NCBI GenBank assembly: GCA_027022065.1
Contig: JALVZS010000098.1
Span: 3,035-9,671, forward strand
DNA from: a bacterium
GTDB lineage: Bacteria > Thermosulfidibacterota > Thermosulfidibacteria > Thermosulfidibacterales > Thermosulfidibacteraceae
Length of the DNA stretch: 6,637 nucleotides
Reading direction: 5' to 3'
The position numbers and the translations under genes were made by a program. Each line of letters begins with the position of its first letter. Positions within the stretch are counted from its first letter, which is position 1. Below the pieces are notes generated by a model. The model worked only from the letters and a program-made list of their open reading frames with translations. It was not told where the DNA came from and searched no databases. This document shows, piece by piece, positions 689 to 6,637 of this stretch.

Positions 689-1506
689 ATATCTATAATA
701 TCTATTTTGAGCGTCTTCGTTCCATGGGCATAAGGGATGTTATAGACATCCTGATCGTTTCCTTCCTGGTTTACCAGATCATCAAGATGGTTAGGGGCAC
801 CAAGGCCTTTCGTATGCTTCTTGGGCTTTTCTTTTTGGTGCTTTTATCCCTTGTTGCAAAATGGCTTGAGCTGAAGACCCTCATGTGGCTTTTCCAGAAC
901 TTTTGGCAGGTGGGCATACTCATAGTGGTGATACTCTTTCAGCCTGAGTTCAGAAAGGGCCTTGCGGATGTGGGAACCATATATCCTATAGGTCCTACCC
1001 TTAGAGAGAGCATGGTAGTGGATGCGGTGGTTTCTGCCTGTCAGTACTTCTCAAAGAGAAAAATCGGCGCTCTAATCGTGTTTGAAAAGGACATGGGGCT
1101 AAAGAACTACATAGAGTCGGGCATTATACTGGATGCCGTGGTCTCTGAAGAGCTTATCATCTCCATATTCCTTCCCTACTCGCCCATGCATGACGGTGCG
1201 GTTATAATAAGAAACGGCAGGATAGCGGCGGCGGCTTGCCTTCTGCCCCTTTCCTCTGATCCCATGATAAGTAAGGCCCTAGGGACAAGGCACAGGGCAG
1301 CCATAGGCATTACTGAAGAAACGGATGCGGTAGCTGTTGTGGTTTCCGAGGAAACGGGCATTGTTTCTCTTGCGGTTGAGGGAAAGATAAAACGGGAGCT
1401 GGATGCGGAAAGCCTTAAGAGGCTTCTCATGGAGCTACTTTACGGAGAGGAGAAGAAGCGGCATCCCGTATGGGGCAGAAATAGGAGAGAGCAGGAGGCG
1501 GTATGA
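670..1506 (+). CDS. cdaA: Membrane-bound diadenylate cyclase CdaA (DisA_N/DAC domain)
   Basis: CdaA condenses two ATP to cyclic di-AMP, a second messenger that in other bacteria controls potassium and osmolyte uptake and cell-wall homeostasis. With the ATG at 670 the protein is 278 residues, normal for the family. Three hydrophobic helices lie at about 24-41, 46-63 and 79-90, followed by the signature FQPEFRKGL (90-98). The cytoplasmic cyclase domain spans about 110-255. It keeps the DGA motif (MHDGAVII, D175-A177) and the RHR motif (GTRHRAAIG, R207-R209), then VSEETGIVS, so it should be active. Start choice is uncertain. TTG at 655 is possible, and ATG at 724 gives MGIRDVIDIL, close to where many homologues begin. 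ATG 670 has only a weak GGGA nine bases upstream. It overlaps folP by 19 bases and nadK by 4. The common partners cdaR and glmM do not follow. The topology and family length favour CdaA over DisA. Confidence 0.95.
   Translation: MRGSLLNIYNIYFERLRSMGIRDVIDILIVSFLVYQIIKMVRGTKAFRMLLGLFFLVLLSLVAKWLELKTLMWLFQNFWQVGILIVVILFQPEFRKGLADVGTIYPIGPTLRESMVVDAVVSACQYFSKRKIGALIVFEKDMGLKNYIESGIILDAVVSEELIISIFLPYSPMHDGAVIIRNGRIAAAACLLPLSSDPMISKALGTRHRAAIGITEETDAVAVVVSEETGIVSLAVEGKIKRELDAESLKRLLMELLYGEEKKRHPVWGRNRREQEAV
1493..1498 (+). promoter_or_regulatory. Shine-Dalgarno site for nadK
   Basis: AGGAGG lies within the last codons of cdaA, four bases before the nadK ATG at 1503. It supports that start and the ATGA stop/start overlap (1503-1506), an arrangement typical of translational coupling. 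Confidence 0.8.
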
Positions 1507-2348
1507 GGATAGGTATTATAGCCAAGCCAAGAAAGCCCGCAGATAAGGTGGTTTCTGAACTTGTCAAGTGGCTTAGAGAAAGGGATGTGGAGGTCTTCTT
1601 GGACGAGGAAACCGCCGTTGTTGCAGGGCTGGAGTCCAACTACAAGAAGTCGGAAATACCCTATGTCTCAGATGTAATTGTGGTCATAGGCGGTGATGGA
1701 ACCTTTCTTTCTGTTGCAAGACTGGCCTACGGCAATGATGTTCCCATTCTCGGGGTGAATCTGGGAAGACTTGGCTTTCTCACAGAGGTAACCCTGGATG
1801 AGCTTTACGACATCATGGAAAAGGTGCTTTCTGGGGATTACTATGTGGATGAAAGAAGCATGCTTGAGGCCTTCATATACCGCCACGGGGAGAAGGTGGC
1901 GGAGTACAGGGTGTTGAACGATGTGGTGATAAACAAGGGAACCCTTGCAAGGATAATAGAGCTTGAAACGACGGTTGACGGCAAGTTTTTGACCGTTTAC
2001 AGGGCAGATGGCCTCATAATCTCCACGCCTACAGGTTCCACCGCCTACTCTTTAGCGGCGGGAGGCCCTATAATGTATCCCTCCATTCCGGCCATAATAC
2101 TCAACCCTATATGCCCCTTCACCCTAAGCCAGAGGCCTATCGTGCTTCCCGATACCTGCGAGGTGGAGGTGCTACTTAACACGGAGAACGAGGATGTTTT
2201 CGTTACCCTTGACGGGCAGGTGGGCTTTGCCCTTAAAGTTAAGGACCTGGTGAAGGTGAGAAAGGCCAAGAAGAAGATAAAAATAATAAAGAATCCCAAC
2301 AGGAACTTCTTTGAGGTGCTGAGGACCAAGCTCAGGTGGGGAGCCTAG
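1503..2348 (+). CDS. nadK: NAD kinase
   Basis: NAD kinase phosphorylates the 2'-hydroxyl of the adenosine ribose of NAD, using ATP or polyphosphate, and is the only de novo source of NADP. The 281-residue protein has the family's usual length and all its main motifs. These are IGGDGTFL with GGDGT at 63-67 (catalytic Asp65), GVNLGRLGFLTE (84-95), LNDVVINKG (138-146), and YRADGLIISTPTGSTAYSLA from 166 with AGGP completing it at 186-189. The C-terminal half reads LDGQ as in other NadK proteins. The ATG at 1503 is preceded by AGGAGG and overlaps the cdaA stop as ATGA. The stop TAG (2346-2348) overlaps the next start by one base. The product is a soluble cytoplasmic enzyme. Its place beside cdaA and a transporter fusion may only reflect operon packing, although the SDR and the NuoF-like protein in this window are both potential users of NADP(H). 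Confidence 0.96.
   Translation: MRIGIIAKPRKPADKVVSELVKWLRERDVEVFLDEETAVVAGLESNYKKSEIPYVSDVIVVIGGDGTFLSVARLAYGNDVPILGVNLGRLGFLTEVTLDELYDIMEKVLSGDYYVDERSMLEAFIYRHGEKVAEYRVLNDVVINKGTLARIIELETTVDGKFLTVYRADGLIISTPTGSTAYSLAAGGPIMYPSIPAIILNPICPFTLSQRPIVLPDTCEVEVLLNTENEDVFVTLDGQVGFALKVKDLVKVRKAKKKIKIIKNPNRNFFEVLRTKLRWGA
2334..2343 (+). promoter_or_regulatory. Shine-Dalgarno site deciding the GTG start of the ferritin-FNT fusion
   Basis: The purine-rich run AGGTGGGGAG ends four bases before GTG 2348. A GTG at 2336 in the same frame lies inside this run and so would have no ribosome site of its own. This favours GTG 2348, which shares its first base with the nadK stop codon TAG. Confidence 0.7.
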
Positions 2349-3634
2349 TGGGGTATTCCAGAGAGGAGCTTCTCAAGAGACTTCAGGACAATCTTTTAGC
2401 CGAAAGGATTGCTGTGAAGGTATATCACCATGAGTCCCAGCGGGTTAGGGATACAGACATAGCCCTTCTATTTAAAGGGGTGGCTTATACCGAGGCATAC
2501 CATGCATCTTTGCTTGCACAGGCCATAAAGAGATTGGGAGGCTCCCCATCCTCTGGAACAGAAGGGCAGGATAAGGAGCTGATTTCCCTTGTTGACAGCA
2601 TGAAGACCGATGAGGATATACTGAGGCTCAACGTCATCTTGGAGAACAAGGCCTTCAATACATACAAAGAAGATGCCTTCCTGGCCGAGGATCCCCAGAT
2701 AGCCCAGCTTCTTGAAGGGATAATGAAAGATGAGAAGGAGCACATTCAGCTCTTTACCCAGGCCCTTATGACACTTAGAAAGGAGGAGCCTGAAGACGAG
2801 GAGGGCCCTTTACTGGTCTTTCAGAAGGCTGTGGATGCTGGGATAAAGCGGCTCTCCCGTCCCTGGCTTGAGATGTTCATGTCGGGGGTGATAGGTGCCA
2901 TCCACGTTACCTTCGGTGCAGTTGCCATGGCTTCTGCGGCAGGAGCCGTTCATAATGGAGGGATTTCATCTTTGGTGGGTGCCCTTTTCTTTCCCATAGG
3001 TTTTATTCTCCTTAAGCTTTCCCACAGCGAGCTTTTTACGGAGAACTTTCTTGTTCCTGTGGTCCCTGTTCTTGAGGCAGGGGAAAGGGCCTCAAAGCTT
3101 GTAAGGCTGTGGATACTTACCCTTCTGGGAAACCTGCTAGGTGCATGTATTTTTGCCCTTTTGGTGCATGTCGGTGGCAAATATGCTTTAGGGCATCTTC
3201 CCGTTAGTTATATAAAAGGGCTTACCATATATAAGCTTTCCCGTCCTTTTCACGAGGCCTTTATAAGCGCTGTGTTTGCCGGGGCCATAATAACTACAAT
3301 GACTTGGCTTGTGCTTTCCGCAAGAAGTGAGGTTGCAAAACTTATAGCCGTTTGGAGCTGCATATTTGTTATGGCCGCAGGTCATTTTACCCATGTGGTG
3401 GTTTCCACCTCTGAGGTCCTTTTGGGGAAAGTTTACGGTATCCCCGTAAGCTTTACTGTTTGGTTGAAGAGGCTTTTTGTTCCAGCTACCTTGGGCAATA
3501 CCCTGGGCGGGATGCTGTTGATAGCTCTGTTACACTATCTACAGGTGCTTCATACCAAGAAAGCCCATTTTTCCTATCTCAGGGAGAGAAATGAGGCCCT
3601 TGAGAGGGCTGTTAGAGAAAGGCTCAGGCTATGA
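2348..3634 (+). CDS. Fusion protein: ferritin-like diiron domain + formate/nitrite transporter (FNT) domain
   Basis: The 428-residue protein has two parts. Residues 6-143 form a predicted four-helix ferritin/rubrerythrin-like bundle with a complete carboxylate-histidine ligand set: Glu19, Glu49-x-x-His52 (TEAYH), Glu99 (LENKAF) and Glu129-x-x-His132 (EKEH). A short acidic linker (144-154) leads to a full FNT domain (155-401). Its six hydrophobic segments lie near 176-199, 209-224, 251-275, 303-323, 329-359 (broken) and 378-401. FNT hallmarks are SELFTENF (227-234, the Thr-bearing omega-loop region), GHFTHVVVSTSEV (345-357, with His349 aligned to the central pore histidine) and LGNTLGGMLL (382-391). 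The pattern resembles the poorly characterised YfdC-like branch more than FocA or NirC. FNT proteins are pentameric channels for formate, nitrite, hydrosulfide or small carboxylates, and their N-terminus is cytoplasmic, so the diiron bundle should face the cytosol. A charged tail (402-428) follows. The substrate cannot be read from the sequence. The domain calls are firm, but joint function is inference. Confidence 0.88.
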   Translation: MGYSREELLKRLQDNLLAERIAVKVYHHESQRVRDTDIALLFKGVAYTEAYHASLLAQAIKRLGGSPSSGTEGQDKELISLVDSMKTDEDILRLNVILENKAFNTYKEDAFLAEDPQIAQLLEGIMKDEKEHIQLFTQALMTLRKEEPEDEEGPLLVFQKAVDAGIKRLSRPWLEMFMSGVIGAIHVTFGAVAMASAAGAVHNGGISSLVGALFFPIGFILLKLSHSELFTENFLVPVVPVLEAGERASKLVRLWILTLLGNLLGACIFALLVHVGGKYALGHLPVSYIKGLTIYKLSRPFHEAFISAVFAGAIITTMTWLVLSARSEVAKLIAVWSCIFVMAAGHFTHVVVSTSEVLLGKVYGIPVSFTVWLKRLFVPATLGNTLGGMLLIALLHYLQVLHTKKAHFSYLRERNEALERAVRERLRL

Positions 3635-3644: not shown

Positions 3645-4400
3645 ATGATAGATTTAAGGGGAAAATTGGCGGTGGTAACAGGGGCGAGCAGGGGTATAGG
3701 AAAGGCCATTGCTGAAGCACTGGCGGAAGCAGGATGTGAGGTGGTGCTTTTTAGCAGGAAGGAAAACTTACTAAATCAGGTGAAGGAAGCCATAGAGGGA
3801 AAGGGAGGAAAGGCTCACGTTATCTCTGGCAATGTGGGAAAGAGAGAGGATGTTGATAAGCTCTTTTCCTTTGTTGAGGACCAGTTTGGCAGGCTAGATA
3901 TCCTGATAAATAACGCTGGAGTTAGCCCCCATTTTGCTCCCTTCTCCTCAACTGAAGAGAGGGACTGGAACTGGATGCTGGATGTAAACCTAAAGGGCGT
4001 CTTTTACTGCTGTCATAGGGCGTATCCCCTGCTCGTTAAGGGCAGAGAGCCTTCGGTGGTGAATATCTCGTCCATAGTGGGCCTGATAGGTATGGCCAGC
4101 ATAGCGGTCTATACTGCTACAAAGGGTGCCCTTACAACTTTCACCAAGTCCCTTGCCGTGGAGTGGGCAAAAGACGGCATAAGGGTAAACGCCGTATGTC
4201 CAGGGTTTATAACCACGGACATGACGGCAGGCGTGCAGAAAAACGAAAAGGTCCGCACACTTTTAATGTCCCGTATACCAATGGGACGCTTTGGCAGGCC
4301 CGAGGAGGTGGCAGGTGCGGTGCTCTTTCTTGTTTCTCCTTTGGCCTCATACATCACGGGCCACTGTTTGGTAGTGGACGGCGGTTGGCTGTCATGGTAA
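3645..4400 (+). CDS. SDR-family NAD(P)-dependent oxidoreductase (FabG-like)
   Basis: This is a classical short-chain dehydrogenase/reductase of 251 residues, the usual length. It shows the Rossmann cofactor motif TGASRGIG (12-19), the structural NNAG (89-92), and a full catalytic tetrad: Asn115, Ser143 (NISSIVG), Tyr156 and Lys160 (YTATK). The substrate-side PGFITTDM (186-193) and a C-terminal ITGHCLVVDGGW segment follow. Arg16 in the glycine motif and Ser37-Arg38 after the second strand suggest preference for NADPH. The substrate is not determinable. 3-Oxoacyl-ACP reductase, gluconate/sugar dehydrogenase and other alcohol dehydrogenase types share these features. It is not in a fatty-acid synthesis cluster here, so a fabG name is not justified. 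ATG 3645 is chosen over ATG 3591 because of AGGAGGT just upstream and because homologues start shortly before the first strand. It is the last gene of the + strand run, ten bases after the fusion gene and just before a hairpin terminator. Confidence 0.93.
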   Translation: MIDLRGKLAVVTGASRGIGKAIAEALAEAGCEVVLFSRKENLLNQVKEAIEGKGGKAHVISGNVGKREDVDKLFSFVEDQFGRLDILINNAGVSPHFAPFSSTEERDWNWMLDVNLKGVFYCCHRAYPLLVKGREPSVVNISSIVGLIGMASIAVYTATKGALTTFTKSLAVEWAKDGIRVNAVCPGFITTDMTAGVQKNEKVRTLLMSRIPMGRFGRPEEVAGAVLFLVSPLASYITGHCLVVDGGWLSW

Positions 4401-4411
4401 GGTGGAATTTG

Positions 4412-4437
4412 AAGGCCCCGTATAGGGGCCTTTTATT
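4412..4437 (+). terminator. Intrinsic terminator between convergent operons
   Basis: AAGGCCCC (4412-4419) and GGGGCCTT (4425-4432) form a perfect 8-bp stem with a five-base loop GTATA. A T-rich tail (TTTTATT, 4431-4437) follows, twelve bases after the SDR stop. This fits an intrinsic terminator for the + strand operon. Its tail runs into the stop codon of the opposite-strand gene (TAA at 4438-4436). The same stem is formed in - strand RNA directly after that stop, but there it is followed by CAAATT and not a U tract, so it may end the - strand transcript less efficiently. Confidence 0.82.
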
Positions 4438-5155
4438 ATCTGCAGTCCGGGCAGGTGGTCAGTTCTTCCTCTGGGAGACCGGTTTTTTCTCTAAGAAACT
4501 TTAGCTGATCCTCTGTAAGGTATAGCCTTCCGCACTTGGGACAGGGGATAAGTTTGCTTTCCTTGTTCCACCTAGGCATTATTCTGTATCCGTCCTTCTC
4601 CTCAATGGGTATGACATCAACAGGACAAACCACTGCGCACGCACCACACACTATGCACTGGGGGCTTTCCTCGTCAAATGGTGTGCAGACCCTTCTTGTG
4701 AAGCCCCTTCCCTCAAAGCCTATAGCTGAAACTCCAACGACCTGCTCACAGGTCCTCACGCAAAGGCCACAGAGGATGCAGTCATCATTTGACTTAACAA
4801 ACCTTGGTTGTTCCTCAACTCCCAGCTTTTGGGCAAGTTCTCTTAGCTTGGGAAGGTTCGGACATCTAGCCATGAGTAGCTGGAGGACAACCTTTCTGCA
4901 CTTATCTATGAGCTCGTTTCTTGTGGTGACCTCAATTCCTTCGGACACTGGATAGTCGCACGATGTTACTAGCCTCGTTCTTTTGCCCTTTTTCACCTGA
5001 ACAAGACACATCCTGCAGGCGGAATACGGCTTTACCTCTTCATGGTAGCAAAGGGCGGGGATGAAGATGTTGTACCTTCTTGCTACCTGTAAAATGGTTT
5101 CTCCTTTGTAACCCTCTACCTCTTTTCCGTCTATTACAAATCTTACCTTCTCCAT
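4436..5155 (-). CDS. HoxU/NuoG-N-like ferredoxin subunit ([2Fe-2S] + 2 x [4Fe-4S]) of a diaphorase module
   Basis: This electron-transfer subunit of 239 residues resembles HoxU and the N-terminal part of NuoG. Residues 1-78 form a [2Fe-2S] plant-type ferredoxin fold with Cys36, Cys47, Cys50 and Cys66. Residues 126-136 (CILCGLCVRTC) and 167-177 (CIVCGACAVVC, then Pro178) are two [4Fe-4S] motifs whose fourth ligands cross over (Cys177, Cys136). Between them and the first domain, NuoG and HoxU normally carry a His/Cys3 cluster site of the HPxxCxxC type. Here residues 94-125 have one cysteine (Cys98) and no such motif. The C-terminus adds CPKC (205-208) and CPDC (235-238), a zinc-ribbon-like pair. 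ATG 5155 is preferred over GTG 5158 because AAGGTGG (5166-5160) lies four bases before it and only one before the GTG. It overlaps the NuoF-like stop by one base (TGATG), so the two subunits are surely co-made. The catalytic partner is unknown. Confidence 0.9.
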   Translation of the reverse strand: MEKVRFVIDGKEVEGYKGETILQVARRYNIFIPALCYHEEVKPYSACRMCLVQVKKGKRTRLVTSCDYPVSEGIEVTTRNELIDKCRKVVLQLLMARCPNLPKLRELAQKLGVEEQPRFVKSNDDCILCGLCVRTCEQVVGVSAIGFEGRGFTRRVCTPFDEESPQCIVCGACAVVCPVDVIPIEEKDGYRIMPRWNKESKLIPCPKCGRLYLTEDQLKFLREKTGLPEEELTTCPDCR

Positions 5156-6637
5156 CACTCCACCTTCACAGCGTTAAATTTGCAGACCTCTCTGCATATA
5201 CCGCACTTTATGCACTTTTCCTGGTCAATCTTGTGCGGTTGCTTTCTCTCACCAGATATGGCCCCCACGGGACACCTGAGGGCACACACATGGCATCCTG
5301 TGCAGGCCTCCTCGTCTATTACGTACCTTATGAGGGCCTTGCATACACCGGCCCTACATTTTTTGTCCCTTACATGCTCTATGTACTCATCCCTGAAGTA
5401 CCTTATGGTTGAAAGCACAGGATTGGGTGCGCTCTTTCCAAGTCCACAAAGGGATGCGTTCTTTACGACCTCTCCTAGCTCTTCAAGGAGCTCTATGTCC
5501 TCCTCTGTGCCCTTGCCTTCGGTTATTCTGTTCAGTATTTCTAGCATTTGCCTTAGTCCTTCACGACAGGGGGTGCACTTTCCGCAGGATTCTTCCGTGA
5601 GGAACTTGACGAAGTATCTGGCAACATCCACCATGCAGGCCCTTTCATCCATAACAATCATTCCGCCTGAACCCATCATGGAGCCTGCCTGATCCAGACT
5701 GTCAAAGTCCACGGGAAGATCTAATAGACTTTCTGGTAAGCATCCTCCTGACGGACCGCCTGTTTGAACCGCTTTGAACTTTCTGCCGCCAGGAATGCCA
5801 CCGCCTATGTCAAATATGACCTCTCTAAGGGTTATTCCCATGGGCACTTCAACAAGGCCCGTGTTGTTAACAGCGCCAACCAGGGAGAAGATTTTGGTCC
5901 CCTTGGAACCTTCCGTTCCTATCTTGGCGTACCAATCTGCACCTTTGTTTATGATAATGGGAACGTTTGCCCAGGTTTCCACATTGTTGAGCACGGTGGG
6001 ACGTCCCCAAAGACCGCTTTCCGTTGCGTGTATGTACTTGGACCTCGGTTCTCCAACCCTTCCCTCAATGGAGGCCATCAAGGCAGAAGACTCACCACAA
6101 ACGAAGGCTCCACCACCCCTTACTATCTGTATGTCAAAGGAAAAGCCCGTTCCTAGGATGTTCTCACCCAGAAGCCCTAGCTCTCTTGCCTGCTGTATGG
6201 CTATGGTGGCGTTCTCAACGGCAAGGGGATACTCCTTTCTAACATATATGAAGCCCTGGTTTGCGCCAACGGCATAGGCTCCTATTATCATACCTTCTAT
6301 GACACTGTGGGGATTTCCCTCAAGGAGGGATCTATCCATGTAGGCTCCGGGATCTCCCTCGTCGGCGTTACATATCACATACTTTATGGGGGATTCGTGC
6401 TTTGCGGCATCGTCCCACTTCCAGCCTGTAGGAAAGCCAGCTCCTCCACGGCCTCTGAGCCCTGACTTTATCACCTCATCAATGATCTGCCTGGGGGTCA
6501 TTTCCGTCAGGGCCTTGGACATGGCCTGGTAACCGCCTATGGAGATGTAATCCTCAATGCTTTTGGGGTCTATTATGCCGTTTGCGGCAAGAAGCAGCCT
6601 CATCTGTTCCTTATAGAAGGGGCTGTCTTCTTCGTGG
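5155..6637 (-). CDS. NuoF/HndC-type NAD(P)-binding FMN iron-sulfur subunit with C-terminal 2 x [4Fe-4S] ferredoxin domain (5' end outside window)
   Basis: This is the flavoprotein subunit that exchanges a hydride with NAD(P)H at FMN and passes electrons to iron-sulfur clusters. Numbering from Met at 6603: the FMN/nucleotide loop [16 protein letters not shown] spans 48-63, and [13 protein letters not shown] spans 79-91. A glycine-rich nucleotide motif with CGESSAL is at 169-175. The N3-type [4Fe-4S] motif is Cys340, Cys343, Cys346 and Cys386. A C-terminal extension has Cys416/Cys421 and two [4Fe-4S] motifs (434-444 and 464-474), as in HndC, HymB or HydB of electron-bifurcating and NADP-reducing hydrogenases; complex I NuoF lacks this extension. 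Met 6603 is probably internal. The frame stays open to the edge and reads [11 protein letters not shown] before it, matching how such proteins run up to this point. A thioredoxin-like N-terminal domain may therefore lie outside. GESSAL replaces the usual GEETAL, which may affect NADH/NADPH choice. It overlaps the downstream HoxU-like gene by one base. Confidence 0.93.
5160..5166 (-). promoter_or_regulatory. Shine-Dalgarno site of the HoxU-like gene
   Basis: On the - strand AAGGTGG ends four bases before ATG 5155, inside the last codons of the NuoF-like gene. The spacing rules out GTG 5158 as the main start and indicates coupled translation of the two subunits. Confidence 0.65.

Follow-up and report, generated by a model that had tools for sequence, protein, structure and literature searches.

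Fusion of a bacterioferritin-like domain to a predicted YfdC-type FNT channel in one poorly known bacterial order

Ferritin-like domains joined to membrane transporters are known from MbfA of Bradyrhizobium and Agrobacterium, which exports iron (PMC7762939, PMC4902296). Its cytosolic ferritin-like domain, which has ferroxidase activity, is required for transport by the fused VIT1 domain (PMC7762939); it forms dimers in solution, and its possible interaction with Bfr has been assayed (PMC4902296). Proteins of the formate/nitrite transporter (FNT) family have cytosolic termini, and the N-terminal helix of FocA is where PflB controls formate movement (PMC5572259). One survey found the largest FNT cluster among the YfdC-type FNTs, which carry a signature of Glu92 plus Gly172 and for which no substrate is known, the two YfdC clusters being without an assigned function (Mukherjee et al. 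2017, PMC5525234); a later computational study, as cited in PMC10789880, proposes neutral or cationic substrates for YfdC-alpha. Like MbfA, the protein described here has an N-terminal cytosolic ferritin-like diiron domain followed by a C-terminal membrane transport domain, but the membrane part is VIT1/CCC1 in MbfA and FNT in the fusion, which had no VIT1 (PF01988) match and reached 20.5 bits against the NCBIfam MbfA model, for which the cut-off is 450. The resemblance to MbfA-type ferritin-transporter fusions pointed out in the initial annotation of this DNA holds, and genomes of the same order also encode separate rubrerythrin-VIT1 proteins.

The fusion gene lies at 2348..3634 of the window (by which we mean the whole stretch of 6,637 nucleotides that was analyzed; features are on the + strand unless noted) and encodes 428 amino acids, from a GTG start to a TGA stop, with the ferritin-like domain preceding the predicted YfdC-type FNT domain. 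In the ORF listing, the frame 2348-3634 spans both domains without any stop; together with the Pfam matches and the fused orthologues, this bears out the single uninterrupted frame first described from the letters. Two in-frame GTG codons, at 2336 and 2348, are candidate starts, and the latter was preferred because the MKYS starts of the orthologues align with it. Full-length fusions were found in 7 of the 8 other genomes examined of the window's order (G002 to G008), for a total of 8 of 9 with the window's own, and are 59 to 63% identical to the window protein; the G004 copy is frameshifted near codon 53, and the G003 copy is cut by a contig end. The fusion was not found in G001, a genome that is 71% complete. 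No stand-alone FNT gene was found in the eight fusion-bearing genomes, in which the fusion is the sole FNT gene. A fusion-derived profile was also run on overlapping samples of 386, 385, 366, and 366 genomes (~1,100 distinct), in which the window's phylum is represented by one order only: outside that order, every match listed was either an FNT of ordinary length or a ferritin-like protein, in each case standing alone, the two phylum searches having been run at E <= 1e-35, where a strongly diverged fusion could be missed. No match in a plasmid collection covered 80% of the query, the fusion was not found in viral contigs, and long frames in the high-GC relatives L194 and L138, inspected by eye, had no ferritin-like N terminus but only a noncoding upstream frame. 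Our analyses thus confirm that the fusion is real and conserved; it brings together two known domain families in a new way and, in this sample, is confined to one poorly known order. The non-subscription literature searched contained no description of a ferritin-like plus FNT fusion and, in keeping with the initial annotation, no characterized function for one; the architecture may already be listed in databases.

The ferritin-like four-helix domain (residues 1 to 145; 2348..2782) was recognized by Pfam, by profile comparison with the PDB, from AlphaFold helices, and by Foldseek (with a low-confidence model). Pfam gave Rubrerythrin as the best match over residues ~10 to 144 (1.8e-10), followed by Ferritin (5.9e-07). 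From the orthologue alignment and the profile comparison with the PDB, the predicted diiron ligands are Glu19 in helix A (2402..2404), Glu49 and His52 in an ExxH motif of helix B (2492..2503), Glu99 in helix C (2642..2644), and Glu129 and His132 in an ExxH motif of helix D (2732..2743), exactly the set that had been proposed at the outset. All six are invariant in the seven orthologues covering the domain, whose ferritin-like domains are only 43 to 52% identical to that of the window; with 38 of 145 columns invariant, the chance of six chosen positions all being so is p ~2e-4. The frameshift-separated fragment of the G004 copy keeps E19, E49, and H52. Column for column, the profile alignment places the six ligands on E23, E56, H59, E99, E132, and H135 of Desulfovibrio desulfuricans bacterioferritin (1nf4), which we take to be the diiron ligands of that protein. 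Residue 102 is Ala, leaving helix C without the second Glu (ExxE) of true rubrerythrins, and no rubredoxin domain was found in the fusion by Pfam scan. Judged from sequence, the ligand set is of the bacterioferritin type and not that of rubrerythrin proper. The fusion thus shares its six ligands, as well as profile and fold matches, with bacterioferritins and mini-bacterioferritins, but bacterioferritins are soluble cages, whereas the ferritin-like domain of the fusion is membrane tethered. AlphaFold placed helices at residues 5 to 32, 36 to 63, 88 to 108, and 116 to 145, the four-helix arrangement expected of such a domain and the one on which the initial annotation depended. Folded alone and with no alignment, the ferritin part had a pLDDT of 53 (low confidence); its best Foldseek matches were bacterioferritins (probability 1.00, TM ~0.6, E no better than 2e-3), which, given that low-confidence model, are supportive only. 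A short acidic linker, EEPEDEEG (residues 146 to 153; 2783..2806; pLDDT <50 at 143 to 151), leads into the membrane part.

The FNT domain, with six transmembrane helices, occupies residues 157 to 397 (2816..3538) and was identified both by Pfam (Form_Nir_trans, PF01226: 3.2e-53, 181 bits versus a cut-off of 34.6, profile positions 2 to 239 of 240) and by its fold: the FNT part matched LciA, FocA, HSC, and NirC in the PDB at Z values of 27 to 33 (~33 for LciA, FocA, and HSC), with aquaporins at ~16 to 17. The AlphaFold run on all 428 amino acids, which used stand-alone FNTs as the alignment, had a mean pLDDT of 80.9 (~90 in the FNT part, 55 to 80 in the ferritin part) and reproduced broken TM2 and TM5 helices with omega- and S-loop. 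It also placed an N-terminal helix of the FNT domain at residues 154 to 169 (2807..2854), the FocA equivalent of which contacts PflB (PMC5572259), and, in agreement with the orthologue alignment, a conserved C-terminal helical extension at residues 398 to 428 (3539..3631). The FNT reading in the initial annotation stood as to a complete domain, omega-loop (ELFTEN), pore His349, and GN motif (Asn384, in TM6) but not as to kind, as the residue pattern is YfdC-type and not that of FocA/NirC. The near-invariant FNT residues are present: H349 (His209), L229 (Leu89), and T231 (Thr91). Numbered as in FocA, the pore residues of the fusions are F75, F79, H/Q86, T91, E92, N93, K156, G172, M202, T208, H209, V212, and N262. 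The YfdC-type signature (PMC5525234) is found in the omega-loop LFTEN with Glu232 (position 92; 3032..3046) and in Gly312 (N172 in FocA; 3281..3283), and both residues, which define the YfdC subfamily, occur in all fusions. Position 86, charged and mostly basic in YfdC proteins, is His in the window and Gln in the seven other fusions. Two residues, T348 (position 208, mostly Thr in YfdC-alpha) and N233 (position 93), match those of YfdC-alpha, whereas position 100 in this alignment is V/I and not the Pro found in 75% of that cluster. Where canonical FocA/FdhC proteins have N172 and E or Q at 208, the fusions have Gly and Thr. Residue alignment nevertheless identified Lys296 as FocA K156 (3233..3235) and, in Thr348-His349 (FocA E208-H209; 3389..3394), the pore histidine.

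FocA, NirC, HSC, and LciA share with the fusion the fold, pore histidine, T91, K156, and N262, but the fusion has Gly for N172, Glu for S/G92, and Thr for E208, and the solved proteins are without a fused domain. With the YfdC subfamilies (Escherichia coli YfdC and actinobacterial YfdC-type FNTs), the fusion shares E92, N93, G172, V212/T208, and, as in E. coli YfdC, an acidic residue in TM5b; against YfdC-type relatives, it adds its ~145-residue ferritin-like N-terminal domain and keeps K156, which is retained in 8 of 8 fusions but is V, L, A, Y, or F in the YfdC-type proteins compared, E. coli YfdC among them. E92 and E216 are extra acidic residues of the YfdC-type pore. On residue pattern, the pore is of the YfdC type and not a canonical formate/nitrite channel, though K156 and the pore histidine are kept, and the fusion probably assembles as a homopentamer. 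A maximum-likelihood tree placed the fusions in one group (98/93) beside actinobacterial YfdC-type FNTs, with another branch for E. coli YfdC and for DsbA-linked proteins from a haloarchaeon and Salinibacter. These DsbA-linked proteins, encoded on plasmids of Natrinema versiforme (L156:2341-3864) and Salinibacter ruber (L155:2935-4509), have a DsbA-like thioredoxin domain joined to a YfdC-type FNT, at the N terminus in one case and at the C terminus in the other. Like the ferritin-FNT fusion, they combine a YfdC-type FNT with a soluble redox-type domain; unlike it, they have a thioredoxin fold instead of a diiron domain and a separate place in the FNT tree.

Pyruvate formate-lyase (PFL) was absent from 9 of 9 genomes of the order, so a formate link through this enzyme was rejected; formate dehydrogenase was not found in these genomes, nor was full-length NrfA, which gave only 60-residue partial matches. 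The window's genome has NuoG as its sole molybdopterin enzyme, and G002 encodes an additional NapA-like protein (nitrate reductase). With no PFL and with neither formate dehydrogenase nor full NrfA found, a formate or nitrite role is unsupported, and the lack of PFL and full-length NrfA, together with NuoG as sole molybdopterin enzyme, weakens the earlier suggestion that the diiron domain might act chemically on a transported anion such as nitrite. A VIT1 domain was present in 7 of 9 genomes, mostly fused to rubrerythrin, and the three examined by Pfam scan (L116, L163, and L166) join rubrerythrin to VIT1 in the manner of MbfA. In the window's genome, a separate rubrerythrin-VIT1 protein is encoded in addition to the fusion, and elsewhere there are genes for a soluble rubrerythrin and a bacterioferritin-like protein of 170 amino acids. 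Because ferritin-VIT1 and ferritin-FNT proteins coexist, the latter is no simple replacement for the former.

The most economical reading of these data is that the channel may be gated or protected by sensing of iron or oxidant. We tentatively favor a YfdC-type FNT channel in which a fused diiron sensor/ferroxidase domain would control gating, an MbfA-like build on a different pore, for which belief and doubt are nearly in balance. The bacterioferritin-like bundle would bind Fe(II) at the cytosolic pore mouth; iron occupancy of the bundle, or its oxidation by O2 or H2O2, would change its shape, and this change could act via the short linker on the FNT N-terminal helix, the movement of which would open or close the pore much as FocA is controlled at this helix by PflB, a separate protein. 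Points in favor are the presence of the fusion in 8 of 9 genomes, the six invariant ligands matching 1nf4, the FNT fold, the retention of K156, H209, T91, and N262, and the precedents of PflB-FocA and MbfA; points against are the neutral or cationic substrates proposed for YfdC-alpha (as cited in PMC10789880), an uninformative gene neighborhood, and a ferritin model of modest confidence. With K156 and the pore histidine retained, the most likely substrate would be a weak acid or small monovalent anion, though not formate made by PFL. The solute could also be uncharged, and neutral or cationic substrates, iron included, remain candidates because of Glu92, Glu216, and the cited YfdC-alpha proposal.

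The same architecture could instead have converged with MbfA on iron export, its ferritin-like domain capturing or oxidizing iron and the YfdC-type pore, in the place of VIT1, exporting iron or an iron-linked species. The domain order and cytosolic placement are as in MbfA, the extra acidic pore residues E92 and E216 and the neutral or cationic YfdC-alpha substrates proposed computationally (cited in PMC10789880) would suit it, and genes for several multihaem cytochromes are present in at least one relative. However, K156 and the hydrophobic/His constrictions of anion channels are kept and are ill-suited to hydrated Fe2+, the fusions group in the tree with actinobacterial YfdC-type FNTs and not with E. 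coli YfdC, and VIT1-type proteins, mostly rubrerythrin fused, already occur in 7 of 9 genomes; we consider direct iron export rather unlikely, although it ranks next after gating. Less probable again is an enzymatic role in which the diiron domain is a peroxidase/ferroxidase that consumes peroxide or processes a solute at the pore mouth, with the pore conducting a small neutral or redox-active solute. Rubrerythrin is the best Pfam match of the domain, and hints of redox biology come from the DsbA-like thioredoxin fusions of the haloarchaeal and Salinibacter YfdC-type FNTs and from a superoxide dismutase gene adjoining one YfdC-type FNT gene; yet the second helix C glutamate is missing from a bacterioferritin-like ligand set, the fusion has no rubredoxin domain, a soluble rubrerythrin is encoded elsewhere in the genome, and peroxide crosses membranes without need of a gated pore.

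Two further roles carry still less weight than iron export or solute processing. The ferritin-like domain might be an assembly or localization module only, for instance docking a soluble ferritin and leaving transport unaffected: the MbfA domain dimerizes in solution and was tested for Bfr interaction (PMC4902296), and the genome encodes the bacterioferritin-like 170-amino-acid protein, but fully conserved metal ligands would be unneeded for docking alone, and we hold this improbable. An ordinary formate or nitrite channel with an irrelevant N-terminal extension would account for the PF01226 match and the retained K156/H209, and the NapA-like nitrate reductase of G002 is compatible with it; the YfdC-type residues at positions 92, 172, and 208 and arguably 86, the lack of PFL in 9 of 9 genomes, the lack of a full NrfA match, and NuoG as the only molybdopterin enzyme of the window's genome make it more improbable still. 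At the far end of the scale stands an artifact, the joining of two neighboring genes by assembly or frameshift. The frame break in the G004 copy could be read that way, and the initial annotation had named homologues always encoded as separate genes as the sign to look for; the homologues are fused, and a continuous, stop-free frame over both domains in independent genomes at 59 to 63% identity rules such a join out.

A naturally occurring link to a diiron domain can serve as a pointer to the function of YfdC-type FNTs. If the MbfA design was rebuilt in evolution on an FNT pore to give a channel that exports iron or is gated by it, which we regard as a minority prospect, YfdC-type FNTs would have a metal- or redox-linked role and not one in formate/nitrite transport, and the MbfA principle of a ferritin-like domain driving a membrane transporter would extend to an unrelated pore. 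The fusion makes it directly testable whether iron or oxidant state controls an FNT pore.

The surroundings of the gene vary. In the window, the fusion is part of a tight same-strand run, folP-cdaA-nadK-fusion-short-chain dehydrogenase; the full contig shows ftsH upstream of folP. The NAD kinase gene nadK (1503..2348) is context only, outside the function of the fusion; its TAG stop (2346-2348) shares one base with the GTG start, an overlap that suggests translational coupling of the two genes. The short-chain dehydrogenase gene directly 3' (3645..4400, with a longer ORF from 3591) is likewise context only. In G006, the fusion sits at the other end of the same ftsH-folP-cdaA-nadK cluster, and in G005 this arrangement can be followed up to ftsH (fusion-radical SAM-tilS-hpt-ftsH-folP-cdaA-nadK, with genes named from sequence); in G002 and G004, the surroundings are different. 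As its placement varies among genomes, the neighborhood gives no clear clue to function or substrate. Opposite ends of the conserved cluster carry the fusion in different families of the order (L111 versus the window). Elsewhere in the order, a rubrerythrin-VIT1 gene lies directly downstream of a sequence resembling the C-terminal portion of FeoB (L116:1-2337; G003:C33), a ferritin gene lies between two multihaem cytochrome genes a few kilobases from the frameshifted fusion (L114:11983-16011; G004:C10), and a universal stress protein gene (Usp) lies near the fusion gene on the opposite strand (L113:3225-3698; G007). On the - strand of the window, overlapping HoxU/HydA-N-like (4436-5158) and NuoF/HoxF-like (5155-6603) genes probably belong to an NAD-linked hydrogenase module.
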